A stretch of DNA of 64,000 nt, taken from Candidatus Aquidulcis sp. (GTDB lineage Bacteria > Chloroflexota > Anaerolineae > UBA4142). The position numbers and the translations under genes are program-made. Positions 2,824 to 60,238 of the stretch are shown here, piece by piece. The stretch spans positions 1-64,000 of the forward strand of contig DYJA01000023.1 in assembly GCA_020723345.1 (NCBI GenBank), read 5' to 3'. Position 1 is the stretch's first letter. Every line of letters begins with the position of its first letter. The notes under the pieces were generated by a model. The model was not told the origin of the DNA. It did no database searches and worked only from the letters and a program-made list of their open reading frames with translations.

Positions 2824-4152
2824 ATGAGCGAACCGATTCCGCCCGACCGACTGACCACGCCCCGTTTCAAGCAACTCCTCAATCAATGTATTCATTGCGG
2901 GTTGTGCCTGCCGGCGTGCCCCACCTACGCCGTGTTTGGCACGGAAATGGACGCGCCGCGCGGACGCATCGCGTTGATGCGCGCCGCCTCCGAGGGGCGC
3001 GTCGCTTTGAACGGCGCGGTCGGCAAGCACATCAATCTCTGCCTGGCTTGCCGCGCGTGCGAGCCGGTGTGCCCCTCCGGCGTACAGTACGGCGCGCTCG
3101 TCGAGACGACGCGCATCGCGCTTGAAGCCGCGCGCCGATCGGGGGTGATCGAACGCGCGATCCGGCGTCTTGCGCTGCGCGAAATGATGCCGCATGTCCA
3201 GCGTTTGCGCTTCGTCACGGCGTGGATGCGACTCTACCAACTCATCGGCTTGCAAGGGCTGGTGCGCGCGCTCAACTTTTTGCCCAAGAATCTCAAGGCG
3301 ATGGAAACGTTGATGCCGCCGCTGCCCAAGAAATATCCCGATTACCGCCAACCCGCTCCGGCGCTTGGAGCAAAGCGCGGCGCGGTCGCATTTTTCTATG
3401 GCTGCATCCAGGACGCGTTCCTCGCCCAGGTGAATGAGGCGACGATTCGCGTGCTGCAACACAATGGATATGAAGTCCACTTTCCGGCGCTGCAGACGTG
3501 CTGCGGCGCGGCGCAGTTGCACGTCGGCGAGGAAGAACTGGCGCGCGATCTTGCGCGGCAGAATATCAACGCGTTTCTGACCCCCACCCCTGCCCCTCCC
3601 CCGTCAGCGACAGGAGAGGGATTCGACGCGATCGTGAACAACGCGGGCGGCTGCGGCGCGACGCTGAAAGAGTACGCGCACTTGCTCCAGGACGATCCGG
3701 CGTACGCCGAAAAGGCAAAACAATTCGTCGCCAAACTCAAAGACATTAATGAATTCCTCGTGGAGCATCTCAACGTCCCGCCGAAAGGGATCGTCAAGGC
3801 GCGCGCGACGTACGCCGATTCGTGTCATTTGCGAAACGTCCAAAAAGTGATCAAGCCGCCGCGCGATTTGTTGCAAGCCATTCCCGGCGTCGAACTGGTC
3901 GAACTCAAACAGCCCGATCGCTGCTGCGGCAGCGCGGGCGTCTACAACATCGTCCAGGTGGATACCGCCAATGCAATCTTGGATGCGAAGATGGCGGACA
4001 TCGCCAGCACGGGCGCGGATACCATTGTGGCGACGAATACCGGCTGCCATTTGCAGTTGATCGCCGGAGTCCGGCGCGCCAAACTCAACGCGCGCGTCGT
4101 TCACCTCGTCGAATTGCTCGATCAATCGTACGCGGCAGAAAGTAAAATGTGA
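2824..4152 (+). CDS. glcF: Glycolate/D-lactate oxidase iron-sulfur subunit GlcF
   Basis: Two 4Fe-4S motifs (CIHCGLCLPACP, CLACRACEPVCP) and CCG domains (CCGAAQ, CCGSAG); adjacent to GlcD/E. Confidence 0.88.
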   Translation: MSEPIPPDRLTTPRFKQLLNQCIHCGLCLPACPTYAVFGTEMDAPRGRIALMRAASEGRVALNGAVGKHINLCLACRACEPVCPSGVQYGALVETTRIALEAARRSGVIERAIRRLALREMMPHVQRLRFVTAWMRLYQLIGLQGLVRALNFLPKNLKAMETLMPPLPKKYPDYRQPAPALGAKRGAVAFFYGCIQDAFLAQVNEATIRVLQHNGYEVHFPALQTCCGAAQLHVGEEELARDLARQNINAFLTPTPAPPPSATGEGFDAIVNNAGGCGATLKEYAHLLQDDPAYAEKAKQFVAKLKDINEFLVEHLNVPPKGIVKARATYADSCHLRNVQKVIKPPRDLLQAIPGVELVELKQPDRCCGSAGVYNIVQVDTANAILDAKMADIASTGADTIVATNTGCHLQLIAGVRRAKLNARVVHLVELLDQSYAAESKM

Positions 4153-4208
4153 TACGTGATGCGTGAAGCGCCCTGAGCGAAGTCGAAGGGTCACGCATCA
4201 CGTGTCAC
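4149..4208. repeat. Palindromic heptad element GTGATACGTGATGCGTGA / TCACGCATCACGTGTCAC around a CCCTGAGCGAAGTCGAAGGG core
   Basis: 17/18 complementary arms read directly; core is a second palindromic repeat family. Confidence 0.8.
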
Positions 4209-4220
4209 TTGAGGTCTCCC

Positions 4221-6866
4221 ATGTCAAACCAAGATACACAACGATCACTGCAAAATGTTTTGTCCGCCAAGCAAGTCGTCACGGATCCGGTTGAACTGAT
4301 CACGTACGAAGTGGATGCCGGTCTCGACCGTGGCACGCCAGCGGCAGTCGCGCTGCCACAGACCCCGGACGATGTCGTGCGCTTGGCGCGCTGGGCGGCG
4401 GCAAATAATGTGCCGCTGATCGCGCGCGGCGCGGGCACCGGCTTGTCCGGCGGCGCGGTCGCCGAGCGCGGCGGCATCATCGTCTCCTTTGCGCGCATGA
4501 ATCGCCTCGTCGAACTGGACGCGCGCGGGCGCAGCGCGGTCGTCGAGCCGGGGATCGCCAATCTCGCGTTCGACGACCTTGCCAAGAAACAAGGTCTGTA
4601 CTTTCCGCCCGATCCTGCGAGCCAGCGCGCTTCGACCATCGGCGGGAACGCGGGAGAGAACGCCGGCGGACCGCACTGCTTCAAGTACGGCGTGATGGTA
4701 AACTATGTTACCGGGCTCCAAATCGTTCTCGCCGATGGCGGCACGCGACGCGTCGGCGGGCGCGCGTATGATTATCCCGAATACGATTTCGCCGGACTGA
4801 TCGTGGGGAGCGAAGGCACGCTGGGGATCATCACCTCGTTCGACGTGCGCCTCGTGCGCAATCCGCCGGGCGTTAAGACGATGATGGCAGTTTTCGATTC
4901 GGTCGAGCAAGCCGGGGTCGCGGTCTCCGCCGTGATCGCCGCCGGATTGGTGCCGGCGACGATGGAGATGATGGATCGGAACATTACGCGGATCATCGAA
5001 GAATACGCGCACGCGGGTTTGCCCGCCGACGCCGATGCGGTGCTGATCATCGAAGCCGACGGCTACCCCGCCAGTTTGGACACGCAGATCGAAGAAATCG
5101 CGGACATCATCCAAGCGAACGGTGGTCGCGATTTGCGGATCGCGCAGAGCGCGGACGAGCGCGACCGGATCTGGCTGGCGCGCAAGAGCGCGGCGGGCGC
5201 GATGACGCGGCTCGCTCCGGCGTACTATTTGGTGGACGTCACGGTCCCGCGCAGTCGCCTCGCGGAGACACTCGCGCAAGTCAATCAGGTATTCAATCGT
5301 TATGGTCTGCGCGTCGGTTACGTCTTTCACGCGGGCGACGGCAACCTGCATCCGTTGATTCTGATTCCGCGCCCCGATGATCGGGAATTGATCGAGACGG
5401 CAGTGCGCGCCGGACGAGAAACGGTTGAGATCGGCGTCGCGAAAGACGGCAGCATTACCGGCGAACACGGCGTCGGGATCGAAAAGCGCGAATTCATGGC
5501 GATGATGTACAGCGGCGCGGAACTCGCGGCGATGTGGGACGTCAAACAGGTCTTCGATCCGCGCGGGCTGATGAATCCGGGCAAGGTCTTTCCGACGAAA
5601 ATGCCTGAAGTTGCCCGCCGACTGCCGACTGCCGACCGCCGACTGCCAGGTGACATCTTCGCTCCGGCAACCGCCGAGGAAGCCGCACAAGGGCTTGTGG
5701 AACTTGGGAAAGCAAAACGCCCTGTCTACATCAGTCGGCAGTCGGCGGTCGGCGGTCGGTCGGCGGCGGTCGTTCTCTCTACGAGCGCGCTGTGCGGGAT
5801 CAAGAAATTCGCGCCGGAGGATCTGTACGTGACGGTCGGCGCGGGGACGCCGCTGGCAGACGTGCAGCAATTCCTCGAACGCGAAAAGAAACTCGCGCCG
5901 CTCGCCTCGCCGTGGGCGGGCGCGACGATTGGCGGGATCGTCGCGTCGAACTTGAACGCGCCACTGCGAATGCGCTACGGCAGCATCCGCGATCTCATGA
6001 TGTGCGCGACGGTCGTTCTCGCGGATGGGCGCGTGATCCGCGCCGGGCGTCCCGTCGTCAAGAACGTCGCGGGCTACGACATGCCCAAAGTGTTCGTCGG
6101 CTCGCACGGCACTTTGGGACTCATCGCCGATGTGACCTTCAAACTCACGCCGCTGCCGCGCGCGCGCCGCACGCTGCTCGCCCCGGTTGACGATCTCGCG
6201 CGCGGCTTGGAGTGGGCGGGCAAATGCTTGCCGCTGGCGTTGGTTGCGTCGGCGATTGTCCTTCTGAAGAATTCGAAATTCGATTTTCGAAATTCGAAAC
6301 CTGTGGTGAGCGAAGTCGGACCATTCGAAATTCCAATCTCTAATCTCCAATCTCCCTACGTGTTGGCATATTCCGCGGAAGGCATTCGCGAAGATGTGGC
6401 CGCGGAACTCGATCAGGTGAAGCAAGTGTTGCGCGCGTCCGGCGCGCCCACGCCGATTGAGGTTGACGCGCCAAGCGGCACCGATCTGTGGATGGCGTTA
6501 CTGGGAGATTCGTCCGCGCAAGCGTTGCGCGTGCGCGTCGGCGTTGCGCCGAAAGATTTGAGCGCGTACGTGAAGGCGCAGACCGCGCCGCTTGAATCCG
6601 GCGCGTTTCTCGCGGACGTCGCGAGCGGATTGGTGTATGCAGTCGCAACGTCGGAAGACGCGGCGCGCGCGCGCGCGTGGGTGGACGCGCTGCGAAAGCC
6701 CGCGCTGAGCGCGGGCGGCTACGCGGTCGTGTTGAACGCACCGGAGACATTGCGCGGCGCGCTCGACGTGTGGGGCTATCAGCCGCAAACGCTCGAGTTG
6801 ATGCGCGCGTTAAAGGCGCGGTGGGATCCGGCGGGGATTTTGAATTCGGGTGTGTTTGTCGCGTGA
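4221..6866 (+). CDS. Fused FAD-linked glycolate/lactate oxidase, GlcD domain followed by GlcE-like domain
   Basis: N-half GlcD (RGAGTGLSGGAV, GNAGENAGGPHCFKYG, GEHGVGIEK, DPRGLMNPGKVFP); C-half a second PCMH/GlcE-like FAD domain (GATIGGIVASN, PVVKNVAGYDMPKV, FDP-like WDPAGILNSG). ORF call begins at 4209; MSNQDTQ start preferred. Confidence 0.85.
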   Translation: MSNQDTQRSLQNVLSAKQVVTDPVELITYEVDAGLDRGTPAAVALPQTPDDVVRLARWAAANNVPLIARGAGTGLSGGAVAERGGIIVSFARMNRLVELDARGRSAVVEPGIANLAFDDLAKKQGLYFPPDPASQRASTIGGNAGENAGGPHCFKYGVMVNYVTGLQIVLADGGTRRVGGRAYDYPEYDFAGLIVGSEGTLGIITSFDVRLVRNPPGVKTMMAVFDSVEQAGVAVSAVIAAGLVPATMEMMDRNITRIIEEYAHAGLPADADAVLIIEADGYPASLDTQIEEIADIIQANGGRDLRIAQSADERDRIWLARKSAAGAMTRLAPAYYLVDVTVPRSRLAETLAQVNQVFNRYGLRVGYVFHAGDGNLHPLILIPRPDDRELIETAVRAGRETVEIGVAKDGSITGEHGVGIEKREFMAMMYSGAELAAMWDVKQVFDPRGLMNPGKVFPTKMPEVARRLPTADRRLPGDIFAPATAEEAAQGLVELGKAKRPVYISRQSAVGGRSAAVVLSTSALCGIKKFAPEDLYVTVGAGTPLADVQQFLEREKKLAPLASPWAGATIGGIVASNLNAPLRMRYGSIRDLMMCATVVLADGRVIRAGRPVVKNVAGYDMPKVFVGSHGTLGLIADVTFKLTPLPRARRTLLAPVDDLARGLEWAGKCLPLALVASAIVLLKNSKFDFRNSKPVVSEVGPFEIPISNLQSPYVLAYSAEGIREDVAAELDQVKQVLRASGAPTPIEVDAPSGTDLWMALLGDSSAQALRVRVGVAPKDLSAYVKAQTAPLESGAFLADVASGLVYAVATSEDAARARAWVDALRKPALSAGGYAVVLNAPETLRGALDVWGYQPQTLELMRALKARWDPAGILNSGVFVA
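5612..5775. repeat. Heptad array pair inside glcDE: (CGACTGC)4 and inverted (GTCGGCR)3
   Basis: Units start at 5619, 5626, 5633, 5640; inverse units at 5734, 5741, 5748; all exactly 7 nt. Confidence 0.85.
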
Positions 6867-15700: not shown

Positions 15701-16342
15701 GGCGGCGACGGCTGGGCGTACGACATCGGCTACGGCGGACTCGATCACGTGCTCGCGTCCGGTCGCAACGTCAACGTCCTCGTGCTCGACACCGAAGTGT
15801 ACTCGAACACCGGCGGGCAGATGAGCAAGTCGACGCCGCGCGGCGCGGTGGCGCGCTTTGCCGCGGGCGGCAAGCCGCTGCCGAAGAAAGACCTTGCGAT
15901 GATCGCGATGACGTACGGCAACATCTACGTCGCGCGCGTCGCGATGGGCGCGAACGACGCGCAGACGATCCGCGCGTTCATCGAAGCCGAAGCGTACGAT
16001 GGACCCTCGCTCATCGTCGCGTACTCGCACTGCATCGCGCACGGCATCGATCTGGCAAAGGGCATGGAACAGCAAAAACTCGCCGTGCAGACCGGATACT
16101 GGCCCCTCTTTCGCTACAATCCGAACCTGGCGAAGGAAGGCAAGAACCCGCTGACGCTCGATTCCAAAGCGCCGGCACTGCCGCTCGAAAAATACACGTA
16201 CAACGAAACGCGCTACACCCAGTTGATGCAGAGCAACGAGGAAGCCGCCGAGCGATTGCTCAAACTCGCGCAGGAAGACGTGAACAAACGTTGGAAGATG
16301 TACGAGAATTGGGCGAACGCGCCGGGGAATGGAAGCAAGTGA
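12785..16342 (+). CDS. nifJ: Pyruvate:ferredoxin (flavodoxin) oxidoreductase
   Basis: YPITPSSTMGEWADQW; two 4Fe-4S motifs (CIQCGKCVLVCP, CTGCSLCVETCP); GDGWAYDIGYGGLDHVLASGRNVNVLVLDTEVYSNTGGQ TPP domain; about 1185 aa. Confidence 0.95.
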   Translation: MARTKVTLDANEAAAYVAHHLSEVIAIYPITPSSTMGEWADQWSAEGKQNIWGTVPLVVEMQSEGGAAGAVHGALQTGSLSTTFTASQGLLLMIPNMFKIAGELTPTVFHVSARALAVQALSIFGDHSDVMAVRQTGFAMLASNSVQEVMDTALIAHAATLQSRVPFLHFFDGFRTSAEVMKVEQLTDDDMRAMIDQDLVRAHRARALSPDNPVLRGTAQNPDVYFQGRETVNPFYLKTPEIVQKTMDKFAQVVGRQYHLFDYVGAPDAERVIVVMCSGAEIAQETVEYLLPKGEKVGVLKVRLYRPFSVEHFVKALPATVKSLAVLDRTKEPGSIGEPLYQDVITALAESVAAGSLPAMPRVIGGRYGLASKEFTPAMVKAVFDELKKAQPKNHFTVGINDDVTNTSLDFDPTFSTEGKEIVRAMFYGLGADGTVGANKNSIKIIGEDTDNFAQGYFVYDSKKSGQMTTSHLRFGPKQIRSSYLITSANFVACHQFSFTERYDLLSAADPGAVFLLNAPFGPDEVWDHLPRTMQKQIIDKKLKFYVIDAVKVAKETGMGGRINTIMQTCFFAISGVLPRTEAIDAIKHAIEKTYSKRGEAVVQKNFAAVDASLSNLYEVKYPNKVTSAFDLRPAVPAEAPAFVQDVLAPIVAGKGDTLPVSKMPIDGTFPLATTQWERRNIAIDIPVWDEKICIQCGKCVLVCPHATIRSKVYDEKYLANAPATFKSTAARWKEFSTQKYTLQVAPEDCTGCSLCVETCPVKDKSDTKHKAINMMPQLPLREPEAKNWEFFLTLPEMDRSKVNVGLVKDSQLLEPLFEFSGACGGCGETPYVKLVSQLFGDRALVANATGCSSIYGGNLPTTPWAKNKDGRGPTWSNSLFEDNAEFGLGFRLTIDKRLEYARELLPQVANLVGAELVDALRQADQSNEAGILQQRGRVQLLKEKLQGNKSLIAQELLSIADVFVKKSVWIMGGDGWAYDIGYGGLDHVLASGRNVNVLVLDTEVYSNTGGQMSKSTPRGAVARFAAGGKPLPKKDLAMIAMTYGNIYVARVAMGANDAQTIRAFIEAEAYDGPSLIVAYSHCIAHGIDLAKGMEQQKLAVQTGYWPLFRYNPNLAKEGKNPLTLDSKAPALPLEKYTYNETRYTQLMQSNEEAAERLLKLAQEDVNKRWKMYENWANAPGNGSK

Positions 16343-16408
16343 CGTGTGAAACGTGAGACGTGAGACGTGATGCGTGGTGCGTGAAACGTGATGCTTGATC
16401 CGTAAGCG
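16343..16408. repeat. Heptad array, CGTGANN-type, left of the four-helix-bundle gene
   Basis: CGTG-type units start at 16352, 16359, 16366, 16373, 16380, 16387, 16394, 16401; each step 7 nt. Confidence 0.85.
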
Positions 16409-16421
16409 TTAAGGGAGCCGG

Positions 16422-16913
16422 GTGAATTACGAGGAATGGGAAAAGTCGGTTCCGGAGGCGATCAAAGGCGATACACTTTGGAAGGTGGAAGTGTATCGCC
16501 TCGGATTATTGCTTTCCGACCTGGCTTGGTACGACACGACCAAGTTGATGCGTGACAAACGCACACTCGACTTGGCAGGTCAGCTCTACGAAGCAGTCGG
16601 GTCGGTGAGCGCGAATGTTGCCGAAGGATATTCGCGCGGCTCGAACAAAGATCGCGCGCGATTCTATGAGTATTCCCTGGGCTCGGCTCGCGAAAGTCGC
16701 GACTGGTACTACAAAGGTCGGCACATCTTGGATGAGCAAGTCACAGACCACAGATTGCGCTTTCTCGTTTCGGTGATTCGTCTCTTGCTCAAGATGGTTC
16801 CTGAGGAGCGCGGTCATACACTCCACGACGAACGCGCCGATTATCAAATCAACGAAGAATGCGCGATCGCCGAGCTCAACGATCTACTACGCAACATCCC
16901 ACTCCCAGACTGA
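16422..16913 (+). CDS. Four-helix-bundle protein (S23/IVS-type, TIGR02436-like)
   Basis: LAGQLYEAVGSVSANVAEGYSRGSNKDRARFYEYSLGSARESRDWY motif characteristic of this family. Confidence 0.85.
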   Translation: MNYEEWEKSVPEAIKGDTLWKVEVYRLGLLLSDLAWYDTTKLMRDKRTLDLAGQLYEAVGSVSANVAEGYSRGSNKDRARFYEYSLGSARESRDWYYKGRHILDEQVTDHRLRFLVSVIRLLLKMVPEERGHTLHDERADYQINEECAIAELNDLLRNIPLPD

Positions 16914-16916: not shown

Positions 16917-16954
16917 TCACGTATCACGTATCACGCATCACGTATCACGTACCA
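16917..16954. repeat. Heptad array (CACGTAT)n, inverted relative to 16343-16408
   Basis: CACG units start at 16918, 16925, 16932, 16939, 16946; exact 7-nt period. Confidence 0.88.
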
Positions 16955-16967: not shown

Positions 16968-17969
16968 ATGCTGGACTTGACTACCACCTATCTCGGCTTG
17001 AAACTCAAAAACCCCATCGTTCCATCGTCGTCGCCGCTGATGCAAAAAGTAGATAACATCAAACACTTGGAGGACGCCGGCGCGGCGGCGGTCGTCTTGC
17101 ATTCGTTGTTCGAAGAGCAGATCATCAAAGAAAGCAACATCCTCGATCACTATCTCAACTACGGCACCGAAGGTTTCTGGGAAGCGCTCTCGTTTTTCCC
17201 TGAGCAGAAAAGTTACAACATCGGCGCCGACGCGTACCTCGACCACATCCGCAAAGTCAAAGCCGCCGTCAAGATTCCGGTGCTCGCGAGTCTCAACGGC
17301 GTTTCGATCGGCGGCTGGATCAAGTACGCGCAAAAGATCGAACAAGCCGGAGCCGACGCGCTCGAATTGAATATGTACTATCTCGCCGCGGATCCGGCGC
17401 AAACCGGCGCGCAAGTCGAGCAAATGTATCTCGATCTCGTGCGCGCGGTCAAGGCGAGCGTCAAGATTCCGATTGCGGTGAAACTGAGTTTGCACTTTAG
17501 CGCGTTCGCCAACATCGCACAACAACTCGCGCAAGCCGGCGCGAACGGGCTAGTCGTCTTCAATCGTTTCTACCAGCCGGATTTCGATCTAGAAAATCTT
17601 GAAGTCGTTCATGATCTGGAACTGAGCACGCCCGACTTGCTGCGCGTGCGTCTACGCTGGGCGGCGATGCTGCACGGGAAAATCAACGCCGACCTCGCGG
17701 TCACCGGCGGCGTCCACACTGCCGAAGACGTCCTCAAGTGCATGATGGCGGGCGCGCGCGTCGCAATGATGACGTCCGCGCTGCTCGAACACGGCACGGA
17801 GCACGTCCGCGCGGTGCTGGGCGATCTGGCCGCGTGGATGCAGAAACACGAGTACGAATCCATCACGCAGATGCAAGGCAGCATGAGCCAAAAGTCGGTC
17901 GCGTATCCGGCGGCGTTCGAGCGCGCGAATTATATCAAGGTGCTGCAATCGTATCGCCCGGCGATTTAG
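16968..17969 (+). CDS. Dihydroorotate dehydrogenase-like protein
   Basis: [54 protein letters not shown]-barrel DHOD family. Confidence 0.85.
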
Positions 17970-25683: not shown

Positions 25684-27945
25684 ATGAGCAGCAAATCCGA
25701 CCACGAACTAATCAACGAAATGCGCGAAGGGCGGCGCGGCGCGTTGGGCGAATTGTTCGACCGGAACAGCCCGCCGCTGTACGAATTCATCTACCGGATT
25801 ATCGGCGACCGCGATCAAACCGCGCGCCTGTTGGAAGAAACCTTCGCGCGCGTGCCGGCCGGCGTTTCGACGTTGGACGATCAAATTTCGGTGCGCGGCT
25901 GGCTGTACGGACTGGCGCGCGAAGTTTCGCTCGGTTTTCTCCGCCAAAAGGGCTGGCTCGATTCGCTGCCGCCTTCCTCCGAGCCGAGCGTCTCCGGTTT
26001 AGCCGGCGACATTTGGCGCGCCGCGCGCGCGATTCCCGCGTTTCATCGCGCGGTCCTCGTCGTCGAAGAACTCCACGGACTCTCGCCCACCGAAAAAGCG
26101 CACGCGCTCGGCATCGCGCGCACCGATTTCACGCGCCTGCTCGAGGAAGCCCGGCGTTTGTTCAACGCGCAATTCGATTCGCAAGCGCGCTCACAAAGCC
26201 GACCGGTGTCGAGCCAAATCGATCCGGAACACATTTGGGGAATGCACCGCCGCCTCGGTTCGGGCGGCTCGCTCTTTGGCTATTTGCCCGTGTTCGTCTT
26301 GCCGGATTCGCTCGCGGCGACTGTGCGCGCGCGCGTGCTTTCGTCGGCGCGGATGATCGCCGCCGCGCCGCACGTCGCCCAAAGCGTCCTCGCCGAAAGT
26401 GTGCCTGCCGAGCCACCGGCGCGCGCGCCGCTCTTCACCGAAACCGGATCGCTCTTCGAGGGCTGCGCGTGGCAATGGATCGGCACCGCGTTTCTCGTCG
26501 CGCTCGGCATCATCGCGATCGCGCTCGGCATCGGCTTTTTGATGACGCGCGACACAGCCATGCCGGTTATTTCGCGCGTCGAACCAACCGGCGATTCGAC
26601 CATCCCGTACAATCCAAGTCCGGGCGGCACGCTGACGCGCGTCACCATCCGGACGACCTATCGCGATGAGCGCGCGGTCGATCTGCGCTCGATCAAACTC
26701 GTCGTCGACGGACTCGACGTGACCCGGCAAGCCATCGTCGGCGACACGACCACGACCTTCGCCGCCGATTTCGAGCCGGGCACGCACGTCGTTCTTTTCG
26801 AATTGCGCGATACGGCGGGCAACAAAGCATCGCGCGGGTGGCAGTTTAGCATCGGCGCGGCGCCTGAGCCGACTCCGTTTCCGACCGCGACGCCGACGCT
26901 ACGCCCGACGATCCTGCCGACTCTGCTGCCCACACCCACCGGGACCGTCACCCCGTTCCCGCCGCCGACGATCACGATGTTCACCGCCAATCCGTCGACG
27001 ATTGCGCGCGGCGCGCCGTCGCTGCTGCAATGGAATGTGACCAACGCGGATCAAGTTTTTCTCAATCAAGAAAAAGTCGATCCGGCGAGTTCGCGTTTGG
27101 TTTCGCCCACCGCGACGACGACGTACTATTTGATCGCGAACAATCCCGGCGGCACCACCACTCAGACCGTGACGATCACCGTGCAAGACTTGCCCGATCT
27201 CACCGTCACCGATATTACGCTAACTCCCAACAATCAAGTTATCTACACCGTCCGCAACATCGGCGGCGGCGATGTGACGCGCACATTCCTGATCCAAGTC
27301 ACGGTCAACAGCGTCGTCGTTCAATCCGACCGCCCCGTCACGTCACTGCCATCGCAACAAGAAGCGCGGCTCGTCGTACCGAACTTTACGCTGCTCGGCA
27401 CGCAGAGCGTTAGCGTGAATGTGAACGTGCTGCAAGAAGTTCAAGAATCGAATTACAACAACAACATCCTGGTTCGCACGTTGGTCGGTCCCACTCCAAC
27501 TCCGACGCTCACGCCGACGAATACGCCCACGCTCACGCCGACAAACACGCCGACGAATACGCCGACAAACACACCAACAAATACGCCGACGAACACGCCG
27601 ACGCCGACGAACACGCCGACCGCGACTTCGGTGCCGGGCATCGTCACGAGCGCGATCGCGAATGTCAATCCGGTGGTGTACACCGGCGCGTGCCCCGCGA
27701 CGTTCAACTTTACCGGTTCGATCACGATGAACGGACCCGGCACAGTGACCTATCGGTGGGAGCGCAGCGACGGCGTGAGCAAACCGTCCCAAGTGCTGAC
27801 CTTCACCGCTGCCGGGACGCAAAGTATCGCCGATCAATGGGCATCACTGCCGATCACGGTGACCAACGGCTGGGAACGGATTCACGTCGGCTCCCCCAAC
27901 GATCTGTTCTCGAATCAAGCGGTCTTTACGAATAGCTGCAAATAG
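25684..27945 (+). CDS. ECF sigma-factor-like N-terminus, TM helix, Ig/CARDB-like extracytoplasmic C-terminus
   Basis: Sigma2-like [22 protein letters not shown] and sigma4-like [76 protein letters not shown]...NYNNNI CARDB-like; Thr-Pro-Asn linker. Confidence 0.72.
27490..27625 (+). repeat. Coding microsatellite-like tract, (ACGCCGACRAAY)n, encoding [10 protein letters not shown]
   Basis: Direct reading of sequence and translation. Confidence 0.85.
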
Positions 27946-34585: not shown

Positions 34586-34670
34586 CTCGTCTCCTCCATT
34601 TCCGTTTCGCCATTATACTTGGCGCGCCGCCATTGCGCAAGACGTGTGACGCGCGTATAATCGGGAGGAA

Positions 34671-34698
34671 GATGAAAGATGAGAGATGAGAGATGAAA
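34671..34698. repeat. Heptad array (GATGARA)4 overlapping the start codon of the xdhC-like gene
   Basis: Units at 34671, 34678, 34685, 34692. Confidence 0.85.
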
Positions 34699-35766
34699 GA
34701 GGACTTGATAGCAACGATTGACGCGTGGCGCGCGCGTGGCGACGCGGTTGCGCTCGCGACCGTCGTAAAAACGGGCGGCGCGACGCCGCGTCCGCTTGGT
34801 GCGAAGATGATCGTCAACGCGCGCGGCGAATTCGCAGGCAGCGTCAGCGGCGGCTGCGTCGAAGGCGCGGTGATCGAGGAAGCGCGGCGCGTCCTGAAAA
34901 CGGGCAAGCCCAAGTTGTTGAAATACGGCATTGCGGACGAGACCGCGTGGGATGTGGGATTGAGTTGCGGCGGGATGATTGAAGTCTGGTTGGAAATTGG
35001 AAGTTGGAAATTGGAGGTTGGAAAACCAGGTTGGCTGGACGAGATCGAGCGCGCAATTGAATTGGATGAGTTGTGCGCGCTTGCAACGATTGTCAGCGGC
35101 GCGAACGTTGGCGCGCAGATGATCGTGTACGCCGACGGTCGCACGTCTGGCGATTTGGGAGACGCGGCGCTGACCGCGCAAGTCGCGCGCGACGCGCAGC
35201 GCGCGATGGAACATGAAATGCCGGAGAATCGCGCGTATGGCGACGCGGAGATTTTCATCGACGTGTTCGCGCCGAAACCGAAACTCGTCATCTTCGGCGG
35301 TGTGCATACCGCGATTCCACTGACGCAGTTCGCGCAGACGCTCGGTTTCCGCGTGACGATTGTGGACGGGCGCGAACGCTTTGCGAACCGCGAACGCTTT
35401 CCGACTGCCGACGAAATCATCGTCGAGTGGCCCCAGGACGCGCTCGCGCAAATCAAGATCGACGCGTCCACGTACATCGCGATCCTCACGCACGATCCCA
35501 AATTCGACCTGCCCGCGCTCGCCGCGCTGTCGAAAACCGCGCCACCGCGCTACATCGGCGCGATGGGTTCGCGCGCGACGCGCGCGCAACACTTCGCGGA
35601 ACTGCGCGCGCAAGGCGTCTCGGAAGAATTTTTATCGCGCGTGCACGGACCAATCGGCTTGGACTTGGGCGCGCGCACGCCGGAGGAAATCGCGCTCGCG
35701 ATCATCGCGGAGGTGATAGCGGTGCGATACGGGAAGAAAGGCAGAAGGATGAAGGATGAAGGATGA
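34693..35766 (+). CDS. XdhC/CoxI-family protein
   Basis: GDAVALATVVKTGGATPRPLGAKM; VSGGCVEGAV; IGAMGSRATRAQHF; GLDLGARTPEEIALAIIAEVIA. Confidence 0.9.
   Translation: MKEDLIATIDAWRARGDAVALATVVKTGGATPRPLGAKMIVNARGEFAGSVSGGCVEGAVIEEARRVLKTGKPKLLKYGIADETAWDVGLSCGGMIEVWLEIGSWKLEVGKPGWLDEIERAIELDELCALATIVSGANVGAQMIVYADGRTSGDLGDAALTAQVARDAQRAMEHEMPENRAYGDAEIFIDVFAPKPKLVIFGGVHTAIPLTQFAQTLGFRVTIVDGRERFANRERFPTADEIIVEWPQDALAQIKIDASTYIAILTHDPKFDLPALAALSKTAPPRYIGAMGSRATRAQHFAELRAQGVSEEFLSRVHGPIGLDLGARTPEEIALAIIAEVIAVRYGKKGRRMKDEG
34985..35027. repeat. In-frame heptad array (RRTTGGA)5 inside the xdhC-like gene, encoding WLEIGSWKLEVGKPGW
   Basis: GGTTGGAAATTGGAAGTTGGAAATTGGAGGTTGGA, 7-nt period. Confidence 0.85.
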
Positions 35767-35816
35767 AGGATGAAGGATGAAGCAATTTTTCATCCTTCAT
35801 CCTTCATCCTTCATAC
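35747..35816. repeat. Heptad inverted pair (GGATGAA)5 / (TTCATCC)4
   Basis: Units 35747, 35754, 35761, 35768, 35775; inverse 35789, 35796, 35803, 35810. Confidence 0.95.
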
Positions 35817-35821
35817 TTTGA

Positions 35822-36376: not shown

Positions 36377-36816
36377 TCTGCCTCATTTATGATTTCTGAT
36401 TTCTGATTTAGGATTTCGAGAAACTGCGCGGGCGTTACAATTTTGACGCGGCGATGCTGTTTGAGATCGAGCAAATGCTGATTGCCCGAAACGAGATAAT
36501 CTGCGCCGCCTTCGGCCGCGCACGCAAGTACCAGGTTATCGGGTGGATCCTGCGGAATGAGGTTTTCCACTTGATGAACGACAATCATTCTTGCGCTGTT
36601 GCGATGACGGTTGATGAAGCCAGTGATTGTTTCTTCATCTAGATTATATTTGCGCTGGATATGTCTCCGATGCAAGGCGTCACGCGCTTCATCAAGAATA
36701 GCTTCGCATGTCACTAACTCAAATTCCGTTGGACGCGCGAGAATCTGGGCTGGTTTTCCGACGGGTTTGATCAAGGCGCTCACAAAGACATTAGCATCCA
36801 AGACGATGGCAATCAT
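36373..36816 (-). CDS. PIN-domain toxin
   Basis: VLDANVFVSALIKPVGKPAQIL; DPPDNLVLACAAEGGADYLVSGNQHLLDL. Confidence 0.9.
   Translation of the reverse strand: MIAIVLDANVFVSALIKPVGKPAQILARPTEFELVTCEAILDEARDALHRRHIQRKYNLDEETITGFINRHRNSARMIVVHQVENLIPQDPPDNLVLACAAEGGADYLVSGNQHLLDLKQHRRVKIVTPAQFLEILNQKSEIINEAE
36383..36420. repeat. Heptad array (GATTTCT)n encoding the C-terminus of the PIN ORF (QKSEIINEAE)
   Basis: TTTATGATTTCTGATTTCTGATTTAGGATTTCG, 7-nt period. Confidence 0.75.
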
Positions 36817-37408: not shown

Positions 37409-40400
37409 TCACGAATTACGTTTGCGCGCACGCCCCCGTCCGTTTGTTTTCGCCTTTGTCCGTTGTACTCCCTTCCGCCTTGTGCGTTTAATCCGCTTTT
37501 GCCCGTTGTCCACCTCCGCGTACCTCAAATTTCCCACCACCTCTTTGAGCGCGCGATATGCGGCACCCCGAACAATATCTTCTTTATCATTTGCCAATTC
37601 AAGCAACGCAAGCGCAATATATCCCTCTTTCGTACCCAACTGCCCCAACGCTCGCATGGCGTCGCGTCGCACGCGCGAATCTACTTGCACATCTCGCACC
37701 AACTCCAAAAGAATTTTCGCCGCTTCGTCCACGCGTCCCAGTTGCGCCAACGCATGTGCAGCGCCGCCGCGCCCCCCAGCATCCACTTTCGCGTCTTGCG
37801 CCGATGCCAAGAGCGCATTCACTACGACCTCATCGGCGCGTCCTAGTTGCCTCAACTCCCGCGCGGCTTCGCGTCGCACATACCAATCTACTTGCACATC
37901 TTGCGCCAACGCCAAGAGAATTCTCGTCGCTTCGTCTACGCGGCCCAGTTGCCCTAATATCAATGCGTCGAGGAATCGCTCCCAGGCATCTACTTTTTCG
38001 TCCTGCGCCAACGCCAAGAGAATTTTCGCCGCTTCGTCTACGCGCCCCAGTTCCCCTAACACTGATGCGTCGAGGATTCGCTCCAAGGCGTCTACTCTTT
38101 CGTCTTGCACCGACGCCAAGAATGAATTCACCACGACCTCATCGGCACATCCCAGTTGCCTTAACGCCTGCGCGGCGTCGCGTCGCACGTGACAATCTGC
38201 TTGCACATCCTGCGCTAAAGCCAAGAGTGCATTCACTATGACCACATCGCCACGACTCAGTTGCCCTAACACCCGCACGGCGGCACATCGGACCTGGTAA
38301 TACACTTTTTTGTCTTGCGCCAAAGCCAAAAGCACATTCACCATAACCGCATCACCGCGACCAAGTTGCCCTAACGCTTGCACGGCAGTGCACCGCACCT
38401 GGTAATATGCTTTTTCGTCTTGCACTAAGGCCAAGAGTGCATTCACTATGACTTTATCGCCGCGCTCCAGTTGCCCTAACGCTTGCGCGGCAGCGCATCG
38501 CACCTGGTAATATACTTTTTCGTCTTGCGCCAAAGCCAAGAGCGCATTCACCATAACCTCATCGCCGCGACCCAATTGCCCTAACGCTTGCGCGGCGGCG
38601 TGTTGCACCTCGTAGTATACTTTTCCGTTTTGCGCCAAAGCCAAGAGCGCATTCACTATGACTCCATCGCTGCGACCCAGTTGCTCTAACGCGTGCACGG
38701 CAGCATGTTGCACCTGGTAATCCACTCTTTCGCCTTGTGCCAACACCAAGAGACCTTTGGCTACGCGCGGATTGCCCCGCAAAGTACCGAGTGCCTGAAT
38801 TGAATCATTACAGAGGGAATCATATTGAGAGTGTTTGGCACCTACAAATTCGAGCAACGTATCTACAATCTTATTTTGCAATGTCTTGTGTACTTTCACG
38901 CCATCCGCCAAACACCGCGCCGCCAGAAACAAATCACGGTGAATCACCTCGTCAAACTTGTCGTGCTCACGCAGAATTTTTTCAACGATGATGCTTGGCG
39001 TATCGCCCTCATCGTTCAAACGACCGAGCAAAAGCAGAATTACTTCCAGCCAGCGCGAGTCGTAGAGATGCGGTTGAATCGCTTGCCACAACGCATCAGG
39101 CGTTTTGCGGTAACGCCAATACAAATCGGACGCCGCAAAATATTCTTGGAAGGTCAGGTGAATGAAACTCACCGCGCCTTGCTCTCGCTCAACCAAGATA
39201 CCTGTGCGGCTCGTCACCAGCGCAACAAACTGTTTCGCCTCGATGCGCGCGGTATCCTCGGAAAGATTCAGCGTCTTGTCCTCGACCAAAAACTCGGCAA
39301 CCTTCATTTCCAATGCGTGCTTGGATATTTGCGCGACATCCGCTTCTTGCGATTCGATGTGCATCCAGTACGCGGCGCGCTCCAATAATCGCCGCCGCAG
39401 TCGGTAATACGGTCGCTCACGGTCTTCAGGCGCGAGTCCTTTCCACTTGTCCCATTCCTCAATCAACGTCTCGGCGCAACGGTCGTACAGTTCGACCCGC
39501 GCATCGGGCAATTTGCCTTGCGCGCGCTGATGCACGAGCGCGATAATCGTGAGCGTCAACGGGTTCTCCGCCAATTTCATCAATCGCTCGTTCGCTTTGA
39601 GGTCATCGAACAAATTTGCCGCGCGCGTTTTGGCTTGTTCGGGTTCTCGTTCCCGCGCCGCGTACCATTTCTCGACAAACGATTGAATTTCGCTTTTGCC
39701 GAACGGCACGATGGTGTGATGCGCGAACGCGCGTTTATCGAGCGATGTGCTATCGTACCCCGCCACGCGCGAGGTGACGACGAACCGATTGCGTGGATAG
39801 CGACTGGCGAGCGCAGTAATTGCATTGCGAACATCGATGCGCTGTGCTGACTGGGACACTTCGTCCAAGCCATCCAAGCAAACGATTACCTGTCCATCTT
39901 CCAGCGCGCGCTCGAAAAACTTCTTGCCGAGCGAAACGTGCAACTGTTTCTCGGCGTAGGATTCAAAATACTCGACGAACGATTGTCCCGACCGCGCGAA
40001 ACTGCTCAGGCGAATCAGAATGGGCAAACCAAGTTCTCGACGAAGGACGAACGACGAACGACCAAAGTCTTCTGTCTCGCGAAGCGGTCCTTCGTCCTTC
40101 GTCGCGGTTTCCGCCGCCACCAACGTCAAGTACCGCAACAACGTGGACTTGCCTGCGCCTGGGTCGCCAAGAATCATCAGATTGCGATGCTCGCGGAGTG
40201 CTTGGTCAATCGTCACGCGGCGCGTGATTTTGGTTGGACGTTCGCGCTCGCGTTTCTCTTTCGGTTGGCGTTCGTCGCGCTCTTCCACTTCTTCCGCCGC
40301 GCTCAAAGCGATGTAAATGTCTTGTAGTTTGGGGCGTTCTTGCTCACCTGAATCCACAATGCCCGCGAGTTCAAGCAATTCCGTCTGCGCCACCAGCGCA

Positions 40401-40837
40401 TCGAGGTACGCTTGGCGTTGATACTTTTGTACCTCCGCGTCCAGCGCGCGGCGAATATCAGGGAGATGGCTGACCAATTCGTCAGTCGTTTTGAACGATT
40501 GGCATTTGTGCGTGGGATAAAGTTCTTCGGTGATAAATTTCGTCAGCGCGGGTTCGCGTTCGGCGCAATCCTTGAGGTAAATCAAAATCGGCTTGCCCAA
40601 TCGCCGCGCTTCGTGGTACTCGTCAACTGTCGGCTGGCTATAGATGTTGGCAAAGATGCCGAGGTACACGTCACATTCCGCAACGTGTTTCAGAAATACC
40701 TCGCGCACGGAATCAGGAAACGCGCCCGCAAATTCGATGGTGAAATTGTCCCATTCGGGTGATTGGAGCGCGTGATGCAACCCCGCGCGTTCAGGATCAA
40801 GCTCGCCTTGTTTGGAACTGACGAAGACTTTGGTCAT
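37409..40837 (-). CDS. DUF4062-like N-terminus / NACHT NTPase / HEAT-like repeat protein
   Basis: MTKVFVSSKQGELDPERAGLHHAL...; Walker A LMILGDPGAGKSTLLRYL; Walker B VIVCLDGLDEV; exact 35-aa HEAT-like repeats. Confidence 0.85.
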   Translation of the reverse strand: MTKVFVSSKQGELDPERAGLHHALQSPEWDNFTIEFAGAFPDSVREVFLKHVAECDVYLGIFANIYSQPTVDEYHEARRLGKPILIYLKDCAEREPALTKFITEELYPTHKCQSFKTTDELVSHLPDIRRALDAEVQKYQRQAYLDALVAQTELLELAGIVDSGEQERPKLQDIYIALSAAEEVEERDERQPKEKRERERPTKITRRVTIDQALREHRNLMILGDPGAGKSTLLRYLTLVAAETATKDEGPLRETEDFGRSSFVLRRELGLPILIRLSSFARSGQSFVEYFESYAEKQLHVSLGKKFFERALEDGQVIVCLDGLDEVSQSAQRIDVRNAITALASRYPRNRFVVTSRVAGYDSTSLDKRAFAHHTIVPFGKSEIQSFVEKWYAAREREPEQAKTRAANLFDDLKANERLMKLAENPLTLTIIALVHQRAQGKLPDARVELYDRCAETLIEEWDKWKGLAPEDRERPYYRLRRRLLERAAYWMHIESQEADVAQISKHALEMKVAEFLVEDKTLNLSEDTARIEAKQFVALVTSRTGILVEREQGAVSFIHLTFQEYFAASDLYWRYRKTPDALWQAIQPHLYDSRWLEVILLLLGRLNDEGDTPSIIVEKILREHDKFDEVIHRDLFLAARCLADGVKVHKTLQNKIVDTLLEFVGAKHSQYDSLCNDSIQALGTLRGNPRVAKGLLVLAQGERVDYQVQHAAVHALEQLGRSDGVIVNALLALAQNGKVYYEVQHAAAQALGQLGRGDEVMVNALLALAQDEKVYYQVRCAAAQALGQLERGDKVIVNALLALVQDEKAYYQVRCTAVQALGQLGRGDAVMVNVLLALAQDKKVYYQVRCAAVRVLGQLSRGDVVIVNALLALAQDVQADCHVRRDAAQALRQLGCADEVVVNSFLASVQDERVDALERILDASVLGELGRVDEAAKILLALAQDEKVDAWERFLDALILGQLGRVDEATRILLALAQDVQVDWYVRREAARELRQLGRADEVVVNALLASAQDAKVDAGGRGGAAHALAQLGRVDEAAKILLELVRDVQVDSRVRRDAMRALGQLGTKEGYIALALLELANDKEDIVRGAAYRALKEVVGNLRYAEVDNGQKRIKRTRRKGVQRTKAKTNGRGRARKRNS
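38122..38770 (-). repeat. 105-bp coding tandem repeat (35-aa HEAT units)
   Basis: GYGCATTCACYATRACY anchor at 38227, 38332, 38437, 38542, 38647; exact 105-bp steps. Confidence 0.92.
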
Positions 40838-40916
40838 TGTCCACATTATCGCCCAAACCACTCTTGGCGTCAAAGTCGCGCGAACACAGGACAACTCCAG
40901 GTAGGGTATCCCCCCA

Positions 40917-40946
40917 TTGACACACAAAATAGTCTTAGTGTATGAT
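40917..40946 (+). promoter_or_regulatory. Promoter TTGACA-18-TATGAT upstream of the ACIII operon
   Basis: Direct match; 64 nt upstream of the first gene. Confidence 0.55.
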
Positions 40947-41009
40947 CGTTGCCGGGCTGAGACCTGACAGCCGTTCCTCGATTTCGCCTCGGACAAATAG
41001 GGAGGAGAT

Positions 41010-41546
41010 ATGCGCGCCACAATGAAGTCGTTTCGCGTACGCTTGATCGCCTTTGGAATTTTCGTCGTCGTGATTCTGCTCCTGGCGGGCGGAGTCTTCG
41101 TCGTTCAGGCACAGGCGCAAGCCACACCGCAACAGCCCGTCCCATTCCCTCACGTGAATATGGTTCAATCGGGCATCCCGTGCCTGTTCTGCCACGCCGA
41201 CGCGATCCGTTCCCCCACTGCCGGCATCCCCAGCGTCGAAAAATGTATGGGCTGCCACAAATTCATCGCCACGAATACGCCGGCGATCCAAAAAGTCGCC
41301 GATTATTATCAGCGCGGACAACCGATTCCCTGGGTGCGCGTGAATCGATTGCCGCGCTTTGTTTATTTTTCGCATCAAGTCCACGTCGTCGCGGGCGCGC
41401 TGAATTGCGAACGCTGCCACGGCGATGTGGGACGCATGACCGAATTTCAACCCGTGGCAAGGATGACGATGGGCTGGTGTCTCAATTGTCACAACGCGCA
41501 ACCCGAAGCGGATCGGTTGAAAGATTGCGTCGTCTGTCATCGGTAA
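41010..41546 (+). CDS. actA: Pentaheme cytochrome c, ActA-like subunit of alternative complex III
   Basis: Five CxxCH motifs (CLFCH, CMGCH, CERCH, CLNCH, CVVCH), N-terminal TM, operon context. Confidence 0.85.
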   Translation: MRATMKSFRVRLIAFGIFVVVILLLAGGVFVVQAQAQATPQQPVPFPHVNMVQSGIPCLFCHADAIRSPTAGIPSVEKCMGCHKFIATNTPAIQKVADYYQRGQPIPWVRVNRLPRFVYFSHQVHVVAGALNCERCHGDVGRMTEFQPVARMTMGWCLNCHNAQPEADRLKDCVVCHR

Positions 41547-47798: not shown

Positions 47799-48674
47799 TC
47801 ACTCCAAACGGATTCCTTCAAACAAATCGCGTTCGATGCGCGCGGGCGGCTGAGCCGGAACCGCGCGCATAAACGTTTCCTCGTTCGCAAACAATTTCTG
47901 GAACACGCGCGCGAGCGCGCCGCCCATGCTCGACAGTTGACTCGAATGGCACGCGGCGGCGCGCTCTTTTTGTTCCAACGCGTCGCCAATCGAAATGCGC
48001 GCGTGAACCGGGAAATCAAACTCGACGAGCGATTCCAGATCGATGTCGCCGTTTTTGCCAAAATGCCGTGGATCGCGTCCCAGCAATTTCAGCAAGCGCA
48101 CCGCCAGCCGCAAAAATCCGCGCGGGAATGTGGAAAAATAAAGTTTCTGCGGCGCGTGCGCCTCCCAATTCCCAATTACCACTCCCTCATCTCCCGCCAT
48201 CCGAAACGCCTCCACCGTCGCGCGATGAATCGCGATGTGATCGGGATGGCGATAGCCGCCAATCGGATCGAAGGTGATGACGACTTGCGGCTTTACGCGG
48301 CGGATGTGCGCGGCGATTTTGCGCGCGACTTGATCCGTCGGCGCGGCGGCGAGCGCGTCGGGATGATCGTTGTCCGGCGAGCCGGGCATTCCCGAATCGC
48401 GATAGCCGAGAAAATCGACCGACGCCAAACCGAGACAACCTGCCGCGCATTGCAATTCGTTCGTCCGCATCTCCGCGACCGACGCAAACCCTTTCAAATC
48501 TGGCGGCGCTTCGCCGACTTCGCCGCGCGTCGCGCAAATCAAATGCGTGCCGACGCCGTGCCGCGCGTAATGTGCGAGCGTGCCACCGGCGGCGAGTTCG
48601 TCGTCGGGATGCGCGTAGACCGCGAGCAAGACCCGACGACCGACGGCTGACCGCTGACCAAGAATGTTTGTCAT
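47799..48674 (-). CDS. PIG-L/LmbE-family deacetylase
   Basis: VYAHPDDELAAGGTLAHYARHG; GYRHPDHIAIHRATVEAF. Confidence 0.9.
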   Translation of the reverse strand: MTNILGQRSAVGRRVLLAVYAHPDDELAAGGTLAHYARHGVGTHLICATRGEVGEAPPDLKGFASVAEMRTNELQCAAGCLGLASVDFLGYRDSGMPGSPDNDHPDALAAAPTDQVARKIAAHIRRVKPQVVITFDPIGGYRHPDHIAIHRATVEAFRMAGDEGVVIGNWEAHAPQKLYFSTFPRGFLRLAVRLLKLLGRDPRHFGKNGDIDLESLVEFDFPVHARISIGDALEQKERAAACHSSQLSSMGGALARVFQKLFANEETFMRAVPAQPPARIERDLFEGIRLE

Positions 48675-48701
48675 CCGTCCTCCGTCGGCGGTCGGCGGTC
48701 G
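48636..48701. repeat. Heptad inverted pair (ACNGNTG)/(GTCGGCG)
   Basis: ACGACCGACGGCTGACCGCTGACC ... CCGTCGGCGGTCGGCGGTCGG. Confidence 0.75.
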
Positions 48702-49147
48702 GAATATCGTCTCATCACGATACCGCGGCCACCGGCGATGCGCGCGAAGATATTGACAACGCGAATGATCTTGCGAAAATATGGCGTCATTTCTTTCTTG
48801 TCAACCTTGCGAAAACCAAAACGCGCGTAGAACGATTTCAACTCATCGCGGCAGATGAGATACACATCGCCCTGCTCTTTGGCAAGCAGCGCGCGAATAA
48901 TTTCGCTCGCGACGCCTTGGCGTTGTCGTTCGGGGATCACCGCGATCGACGCGAGTTCGCGCGAGCCGTCGTCGTGCGGTTTGACCTGACCCACGCCGAC
49001 TATCATCCTGAGCGAAGTCGAAGGATCGTCATCTTCCGCGACGACAAAGCGTCGCCAGTCCAACGACATCGGATTGATCCCCGCGTCGCGGATGATGTGG
49101 TTGATCGGCGGTTGATCGGCTTGGGTGGCAGGACGGATGTGGAACAT
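48671..49147 (-). CDS. GNAT-family N-acetyltransferase
   Basis: LASIAVIPERQRQGVASEIIRALLAKEQG; FYARFGFRKVDK. Confidence 0.85.
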   Translation of the reverse strand: MFHIRPATQADQPPINHIIRDAGINPMSLDWRRFVVAEDDDPSTSLRMIVGVGQVKPHDDGSRELASIAVIPERQRQGVASEIIRALLAKEQGDVYLICRDELKSFYARFGFRKVDKKEMTPYFRKIIRVVNIFARIAGGRGIVMRRYSDRRPPTEDG

Positions 49148-49154: not shown

Positions 49155-49227
49155 TGTATGAAGGCGGAAGTATGAAGCATGATCTTGGCTTTATGCTTCT
49201 GCCTTCATACTTCATCCTTCATACTTT
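49155..49227. repeat. Heptad inverted pair (TATGAAG)/(CTTCATA)
   Basis: GTATGAAGGCGGAAGTATGAAGCATGATC ... CTTTATGCTTCTGCCTTCATACTTCATCCTTCATAC. Confidence 0.85.
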
Positions 49228-54404: not shown

Positions 54405-54434
54405 CATCTCACGCATCACGCAACACGCAATACG
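54405..54434. repeat. Heptad array (CACGCAW)n
   Basis: Units at 54410, 54417, 54424, 54431. Confidence 0.75.
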
Positions 54435-57123: not shown

Positions 57124-57207
57124 CGATAATGGCAAACCCATCGAAAGGGGGGGACGCAAAGCTACGGGCCTAAGGTCGCAAGACGATGGCCGCCGAGCCG
57201 CCGAATG
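57124..57207 (+). ncRNA. Cyclic di-GMP-I (GEMM) riboswitch, copy 2 (P1 appears weaker)
   Basis: GGCAAACCCATCGAAAGGGGGGGACGCAAAGCTACGGGCCTAAGGTCGCAAGACGATGGCCGCCGAGCCGCCG. Confidence 0.85.
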
Positions 57208-57272
57208 GAGACCAGACACTTGTCGTGACTGATCTTCGCCCTTCGCGGAGTGCACATTTTGAGAGGTGTCTG

Positions 57273-57932: not shown

Positions 57933-57955
57933 TAACCCATCCCCTTCAACGTGCA

Positions 57956-57998
57956 AGAAACCCGTTCTCTCCGAGTGGAGAAAACGGGTTTCTTGTTT
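57956..57998 (+). terminator. Intrinsic terminator AAGAAACCCGTTCTCTCC / GGAGAAAACGGGTTTCTT
   Basis: Stem-loop after the sortase-like gene; family shared with 21084-21116. Confidence 0.75.
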
Positions 57999-58000
57999 GC

Positions 58001-58558: not shown

Positions 58559-58564
58559 CATTCC

Positions 58565-59314: not shown

Positions 59315-59321
59315 TTATACG

Positions 59322-59380
59322 CGACGGAACACGCAACACGCATCACGCTCTCTGCCGTGTTCCGTGTTGCGTATTCCGTT
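59322..59380. repeat. Heptad inverted pair (CACGCAA)3 / (CGTGTTC)n
   Basis: CACG at 59330, 59337, 59344; CGT at 59356, 59363, 59370, 59377. Confidence 0.85.
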
Positions 59381-60148
59381 TTACTCGACGGCGGCTTTAC
59401 AAATCGCGATGAAATCCGCCGCGACGAGACTTGCGCCGCCGACGAGCGCGCCGTCGATCTCCGGCTGCGCGAAAAATTCGGCGACGTTTTTCGGCGTGAC
59501 GCTGCCGCCGTACTGCACACGGATCGCCTGCGCGGTCGCTTCGTCGTACAGATCGGCGAGCGCGCCGCGGATCGTCAAGCCGATCACCGCGTTCGCGCCG
59601 GGTCCGCTCGCGGCTTTGCCGGTGCCAATCGCCCAAATCGGTTCGTATGCGATGACGATGCCGCGCGCGTCGTCGCGCGAAATTTCCTTGAATGCCGCGC
59701 GCACTTGCGCGCCGACGACGGCTTGGGTTTGTCCCGCTTCGTTCTGCTGCAAATTCTCGCCGACGCACACAATCGGTATCAAGTGGTGCGCGAGCGCGGC
59801 TTGTACCTTCTTGTTCACGCTCTCGTCCGTTTCGCCAAAATATTGCCGTCGTTCCGAATGACCGATAATCACATAATCGCACACTTCGTTCAGCATCGTC
59901 GGCGCGACTTCGCCCGTGAACGCGCCCTTGACTTCCCAAAACAGATTCTGCGCGCCAACTTTGATCGGCGTGTCCTTAACCAGCGCGGCGACTTGTGGAA
60001 TCGCGATAAACGGCGGACACAAGACGACTTGCGCCTTGCCGCTCGCCGCGACGCGCGTCAATTCGTCGCGCAGCGCGTTGACCAGTTCGCGCGCCTCCGC
60101 AATCGTCTTGTTCATTTTCCAGTTACCGGCTACGATCGGTGTTCGCAT
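59381..60148 (-). CDS. tpiA: Triosephosphate isomerase
   Basis: RTPIVAGNWKMNKT; VIIGHSERRQYF; AYEPIWAIGTGKAASGP; VQYGGSVTPKN. Confidence 0.98.
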   Translation of the reverse strand: MRTPIVAGNWKMNKTIAEARELVNALRDELTRVAASGKAQVVLCPPFIAIPQVAALVKDTPIKVGAQNLFWEVKGAFTGEVAPTMLNEVCDYVIIGHSERRQYFGETDESVNKKVQAALAHHLIPIVCVGENLQQNEAGQTQAVVGAQVRAAFKEISRDDARGIVIAYEPIWAIGTGKAASGPGANAVIGLTIRGALADLYDEATAQAIRVQYGGSVTPKNVAEFFAQPEIDGALVGGASLVAADFIAICKAAVE

Positions 60149-60167
60149 TCAACCCCCAGGGTTCAGA

Positions 60168-60238
60168 GTTCAGTATTCAGTGTTCAGTATTCAGCGTTCA
60201 GATGACTGAATACTGAACACTGGATACTGAATACTGCT
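60168..60238. repeat. Heptad inverted pair (GTATTCA)4 / (CTGAATA)4
   Basis: CAGTATTCAGTGTTCAGTATTCAGCGTTCAGATGACTGAATACTGAACACTGGATACTGAATACTG. Confidence 0.95.

Follow-up and report, generated by a model that had tools for sequence, protein, structure and literature searches.

Arrays and genes of the window

The window, the whole 64,000-nucleotide stretch of Candidatus Aquidulcis sp. DNA analysed here, holds an S23 gene set between two inverted heptad arrays, together with a scatter of further short-period arrays. Scanning with TRF and by lag matching recovered every array of the original prediction to within a few bases and revealed clusters absent from its list at 6270-6355 and 40039-40103. 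The features are given below, with a strand where one is assigned.

4139-4170: weak solo array of CGTGATR (lag-7 score 11.8)
5617-5647 and 5732-5766: inverted pair CCGACTG / CAGTCGG, in frame within ORF 4209-6866 (predicted fold of 5612-5775, -98.1 kcal/mol)
6270-6355: arrays of AATTCGA and CCAATCT, in frame within ORF 4209-6866 (TRF/lag scan)
16339-16413, + strand: upstream array of the S23 element, CGTGANN, starting at the stop codon of the pyruvate:ferredoxin oxidoreductase (PFOR) gene (lag-7 score 26.2)
16422-16913, + strand: S23 / 23S_rRNA_IVP four-helix-bundle gene, 163 aa (PF05635, E 1.6e-13, 51.3 bits against a cut-off of 33.8)
16917-16954, - strand: downstream inverted array of the S23 element, TCACGYA, ahead of the DHO_dh-like gene 16968-17969 (lag-7 score 24.4)
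34669-34703: solo array of GATGARA (TRF/lag scan)
34990-35022: solo array of TTGGARR (TRF/lag scan)
35738-35782 and 35789-35818: solo hairpin of inverted GGATGAA arrays (predicted fold of 35738-35818, -50.9 kcal/mol)
36385-36416: solo array of GATTTCT (TRF/lag scan)
40039-40103: inverted pair CGACGAA / TTCGTCC (TRF/lag scan)
48670-48702, with partner 48633-48659: inverted pair of CCGACGG-type arrays (lag-7 scan)
49158-49226: inverted pair TATGAAG / CTTCATA, right arm 49196-49226, left arm at 49158 weak (predicted fold, -37.2 kcal/mol)
54409-54434: solo array of TCACGCA, in the unit family of the window's S23 element
59324-59348 and 59355-59382: solo hairpin ACGCAAC / CCGTGTT, downstream of the triosephosphate isomerase gene (lag-7 scan)
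60157-60236: solo hairpin TTCAGTR / ACTGAAT, upstream of the triosephosphate isomerase gene (predicted fold of 60155-60238, -46.7 kcal/mol)

Several of these arrays are perfect or near-perfect hairpins in predicted folds, and about 9 of the 14 window clusters have an inverted partner with a strong predicted stem, in line with the earlier view that most form inverted pairs. At a score of at least 12, lag 7 yields 19 segments in the window. Lag 14, being a multiple of 7, yields 13, and every other lag between 4 and 15 yields 0-3; mononucleotide shuffles contain none at lag 7. A wider sample, 464 kb of the 6.34-Mb genome with the window included, gave 108 lag-7 segments where an order-1 Markov simulation produced 2, and no lag outside the multiples of 7 exceeded 22. 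The units are unrelated, as had been proposed: the 104 solo lag-7 arrays of this sample use 52 different canonical heptamers. The arrays have a period in common without a common sequence; they do not descend from one consensus, and some register is imposed on them. Their placement is not always intergenic, as the clusters at 5617-5766 and 6270-6355 lie in frame within, and are translated as part of, ORF 4209-6866. This 885-aa ORF has two FAD_binding_4 matches and looks like GlcD-like and GlcE-like genes joined in frame.

The S23 gene belongs to PF05635 by a profile match above the curated cut-off and fits exactly between the CGTGANN array and its inverted partner TCACGYA. It is the sole gene of the element, which encodes no member of a known transposase or recombinase family. 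A single-sequence structure model of the protein was unusable (pLDDT 43). Six genes in the genome exceed the family cut-off, and inverted short-period arrays flank every one of them, the unit differing from gene to gene: TTCAGTR, TAGTGCRA (8 nt), GACCGCC, AAGGATG, GAAGGCNGA (9 nt) and CGTGANN. The unit of the GGATGAA hairpin at 35738-35818, with at least 80 matches across the genome among the matches listed, falls in the family of S23 gene C115:20413 of the same genome, and that of the TTCAGTR hairpin at 60157-60236 in the family of S23 gene C102:30867. Four weaker PF05635 hits adjoin reverse transcriptases and look like Avd genes of diversity-generating retroelements (DGRs); these loci (C9:292, C116:280, C116:24658 and C66:272293, L015-L018) are likely several such retroelements, and the lag scan found no heptad arrays bracketing their Avd-like genes.

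S23 genes and their arrays across bacteria

We gathered S23 loci by protein or profile similarity, disregarding arrays. The sets comprise 57 named loci, 30 from relatives, 30 from the genomes behind the named loci and 10 from cyanobacterial plasmids; the collection scan used a single S23 protein as query, the six-row S23 alignment being too diverse. An array lies within 200 bp on at least one side of 95% of the 41 testable named loci and on both sides of 68%, compared with 18% and 2.6% of 266 control ORFs, which are long ORFs from the same contigs. P values are optimistic because the S23 loci are phylogenetically related. Arrays accompany 131 of 143 distinct S23 genes, with a period of 7 in 97, 8 in 30, 9 in three and 10 in one; periods of 5, 6, 11 and 12 are absent among the 143. 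The strict 7-nt period of the original prediction is to be relaxed, since the 8-nt and the few 9-nt arrays are the same phenomenon.

The two flanks of S23 genes are inverted copies of each other. Upstream flanks align to the reverse complement of downstream flanks with a median local score of 19.5, against 9.0 for the direct comparison; unrelated loci score 8.5. Across 83 S23 loci, the median array start lies at -2 nt relative to the stop codon of the upstream gene, and 84 of 102 upstream neighbours are co-oriented with S23 by crude gene calls. We also considered a rule of five fixed and two adjacent variable bases per unit and rejected it, as the two most variable columns are adjacent in 26 of 69 arrays, about the chance level.

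As named by their records, the hosts belong to about nine phyla: Chloroflexota, Bacteroidota, Planctomycetota, Verrucomicrobiota, Kiritimatiellota, Acidobacteriota, Marinimicrobia, Chlorobiota and Cyanobacteria. S23 genes of Nostoc and Trichormus carry inverted arrays of 7-9 nt, so that the comparison with cyanobacterial heptamers made in the original prediction proved a good lead. In a Pseudanabaena galeata plasmid (NZ_CP112875.1, 46268-46627; L204), an S23 element with long AAAGCTA arrays sits between cas6 and cas4 of a type I-D CRISPR operon. At L200 (Oscillatoria plasmid NC_019730.1), L056 and L042, the arrays exceed 200 bp and contain nested inverted blocks, which suggests recent expansion.

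Unit and period agree with the S23 tree rather than with the host genome, and therefore travel with the protein. The k-mer overlap between units is 0.39 for close S23 proteins in different genomes and 0.06, equal to background, for distant S23 proteins within one genome. Along the S23 tree, switches between periods 7 and 8 number 12, compared with 27 after shuffling (minimum 22).

The dependence extends to whole genomes. With S23 surroundings excluded, lag-7 arrays number 18.8 per 100 kb in twelve S23-positive relatives and 0.7 in twelve S23-negative relatives, a difference of about 27-fold, and the lag-8 densities are 8.7 and 0. Solo arrays favour the S23 units of their own genome: ranked by likeness to the solo arrays of the window genome, its six S23 units take places 2, 3, 5, 6, 15 and 25 of 131 (p 9e-7). 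CAGTNNT arrays, counted where a genome has at least two matches, were surveyed in 60 genomes: they are present in 18 of 21 that carry the cognate S23 type, in 4 of 21 whose S23 are all of other types, and in 1 of the 18 that gave no hit to this S23. Some observations run against the mobile-element reading proposed below. Genome G012 has 35 CAGTNNT arrays without a cognate S23, and the units of the six resident S23 genes match 26 of the 104 solo arrays (39 at a looser cut); the others would require drivers that are lost, unassembled or unrecognised. Most solo array families of the window genome lack a cognate S23 in the assembly, the abundant AAAATTC, AAAATCG and AATCTCC among them.

Orthologous gaps and empty sites

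A natural experiment is offered by the gap between the PFOR and DHO_dh genes. It holds S23 in the window genome and is free of it in the 19 further genomes compared; in 18 of these the gap itself could be seen directly. In most readable S23-bearing relatives the gap contains a short hairpin without S23, mostly of a different unit (for example GTTCAAG, ACGTAAA, AAGTAAA, TTGGAGG or GGATGAA); in a few it is just 14-45 bp long, and the two S23-negative genomes examined have no array there. The two gaps around the triosephosphate isomerase gene behave similarly. Downstream of the gene, at the site of 59324-59382, other genomes have a different unit or no array, while the upstream site at 60157-60236 has the same unit in a congener and no array in G009 and G011.

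Two insertion events on cyanobacterial plasmids could be read against their empty sites, and in both the arrays and the gene were inserted as one unit with a target-site duplication, as for a transposable element. Plasmids of Trichormus variabilis and Scytonema have the filled site ...AAAAA GTAAT (AAATCAG..S23..TTCTTT) GTAAT TAACAAA..., and the matching sites in Nostoc carneum, Tolypothrix and Aulosira plasmids (about 97% identity) read ...AAAAA GTAAT TAACAAA... In Nostoc ATCC 53789 the filled site is GG TTCTA (AATCAGG..S23..CTGGA) TTCTA GTTATG, and two other Nostoc plasmids lack the insertion. The duplications, GTAAT and TTCTA, are both 5 bp long and overlap the stop codon of the upstream gene. 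Both duplications were observed on cyanobacterial plasmids and none in Chloroflexota, where intergenic flanks are too diverged for those of solo hairpins to be read; the other cyanobacterial plasmid pairs compared gave no clean empty site.

The same plasmids show variation within elements. Two copies of the GTAAT element differ by 14 bp, or two heptads, and a Tolypothrix plasmid has a gene-less loop between the same arms as the S23 element. Three related Nostoc plasmids (L259, L262 and L263) were compared in the gap that precedes their S23 site: two share the left arm of a solo hairpin and differ in the loop, and the third lacks that hairpin, which suggests loop replacement or insertion into loops.

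Proposed small mobile elements encoding S23

We propose that the arrays are very probably the ends of a family of tiny mobile elements that carry S23 as their sole gene, together with derivatives that have lost the gene. In this reading a full element consists of a short-period array, a ribosome-binding site and S23 ORF, and an inverted array, spanning about 400-620 bp in the cases seen. Its insertion duplicates 5 bp of the target and mostly takes place at the stop codon of a gene read in the same direction, which allows co-transcription of S23. The unit and period are specific to the S23 lineage, and gene-less inverted pairs of the same unit, forming MITE- or REPIN-like hairpins, outnumber the S23 copies and turn over fast between species.

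S23 has no recognised transposase domain. We infer that S23 itself recognises the heptads and is needed for movement; the main argument for recognition is that unit and period are inherited with the protein. Q36, E50 and E74 are invariant in the 143 S23 proteins, with N47 and S43 nearly so, a pattern that looks like a functional site. The solved homologues 2rld and 2gsc have five chains per entry each, which leads us to suspect a pentamer and would account for a fixed step; an oligomeric S23 that reads several units at such a step is the likely reason for the register. A further step is possible, although we hold it to be doubtful: S23 might be the founding member of a novel class of transposition proteins, a small four-helix protein, apparently pentameric, which reads several heptads or octads at the ends of its element in register and, by itself or aided by host enzymes, inserts the element with a 5-bp stagger. 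The STRR, TAACTGA and GGGAATC heptamers, the 23S rRNA intervening sequences (IVS) and the window arrays would then form one superfamily across much of the bacterial domain.

Four other explanations were weighed. S23 could act like the Avd of DGRs, recruiting a reverse transcriptase to hairpin RNA so that the element moves through cDNA, which we regard as unlikely. Both S23 and Avd match PF05635, the match of the Avd-like genes (L015-L018) being weak, and share a four-helix fold, and the host has four reverse transcriptase loci beside Avd-like genes. Yet Avd adjoins its reverse transcriptase, whereas no reverse transcriptase lies beside the S23 elements examined, and heptad arrays do not bracket the Avd-like genes. 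The adjacent reverse transcriptase with template and variable repeats that marks a DGR has no counterpart at S23, the reverse transcriptase loci of this genome lying only beside the weak Avd-like hits. RVT_1 was also not detectable in S23-rich relatives such as G002 (14 S23 matches), G013 (9), G035 and G041 (93-97% complete), a point weakened by incomplete assemblies.

It is quite unlikely that the arrays arose by ordinary slippage, were retained because they act as terminators or RNA-stability hairpins, and receive S23 genes as passengers. Strong stems at gene 3' ends, PFOR gap hairpins without S23 in most relatives and the difference of two heptads between copies of one element would all fit. 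Against it stand the empty sites that lack both arrays and S23, the inheritance of unit and period with S23 instead of the host, and the enrichment of a genome's own S23 units among its solo arrays.

The free-standing activity of the original prediction, templating or synthesis with a 7-nt register that writes arrays de novo and needs no element, appears very unlikely. It would explain a common period without common sequence, the in-register drift from one unit to another within some arrays, and the different units that one gap carries in different genomes. The last of these counts against the S23 element, as in-situ rewriting of hairpins could also fit. However, arrays and S23 are gained or lost as one insertion with a 5-bp duplication, an S23 insertion that brought its own arrays to an array-free site was seen twice, the period may be 8 or 9 and follows the S23 lineage, and S23-negative relatives nearly lack arrays. 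The inheritance of unit and period with S23 and the joint insertion of array and gene make a shared protein family a better explanation of the register than a templating enzyme.

Movement of the hairpins in trans by a Y1 (HUH) transposase is scarcely credible, as no Y1_Tnp hit was found in G009 (11 S23 matches, 94% complete), G005 or G006, and 5-bp target duplications are not expected from HUH single-stranded DNA transposition. As a general requirement, RVT_1 and the Y1 transposase were both rejected, being undetected in several S23-rich relatives, most of whose assemblies are incomplete.

The S23 elements share the logic of REPIN/RAYT systems, with few protein genes flanked by short inverted repeats that are also scattered as many gene-less hairpins of matching sequence (PMC3116915). 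They differ in that the flanked gene is S23, which is not an HUH transposase, and an S23-rich genome gave no PF01797 hit; their ends are 7- or 8-nt arrays with lineage-specific units, and they make 5-bp target duplications. In the IVS of 23S rRNA, for example in Coxiella burnetii, an S23 ORF lies within terminal inverted repeats, and the IVS is considered a selfish element of unclear origin and mobility (PMC4990558). The S23 elements likewise place an S23-family ORF inside inverted terminal repeats that form a long stem. An IVS is further marked by its place in a 23S rRNA gene and its excision by RNase III. Unlike the IVS, the window element lies between the PFOR and DHO_dh genes and not inside a 23S rRNA gene, and more generally the elements occupy protein-gene operons, end in heptad or octad arrays, duplicate their target and have more gene-less copies than S23 copies.

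For decades, bacterial heptamers have been described as regulatory sites, quadruplexes or markers, and no general explanation has covered them. GGGAATC of Xanthomonas and GGGGAYT of Nostoc were reported as quadruplexes, and the Xanthomonas arrays are often inverted pairs with variable positions (GGGANTN) (PMC4692102). The TAACTGA repeats of Beggiatoaceae were described as possible regulatory repeats (PMC4679880). These repeats are intergenic heptamer arrays like those described here, and the STRR of heterocystous cyanobacteria are heptamer arrays that may be comparable. The Xanthomonas, Nostoc and Beggiatoaceae repeats were treated as G-quadruplexes or regulatory sites. A link to S23 in those species is our prediction; the searched text of PMC4692102 and PMC4679880 does not mention S23 or four-helix proteins, and our literature searches found no paper connecting S23 with heptamer arrays.

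S23 proteins and IVS have had no known function or mode of movement, and a tie between S23 and heptamers would explain both sides and predict where each occurs, for example around XCC0516 in Xanthomonas. XCC0516 (PDB 2gsc) is one of the two solved S23 homologues and comes from what we take to be the same Xanthomonas species as the GGGAATC arrays. The tie would also offer a model in which a DNA array appears to take its unit and period from the lineage of a very small protein. Should S23 prove to perform the insertion, it would represent a transposition protein of a new kind.

The window contains other repeats. Tandem 102/105-bp repeats of about 78-87% identity occupy 37902-38752 within a 1203-aa ORF (37409-41020, - strand), which probably encodes a helical-repeat protein. 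At 27490-27626, coding repeats of 12, 18 and 36 bp (CCGACGAACACG type) lie in a long ORF and have no relation to the heptads.
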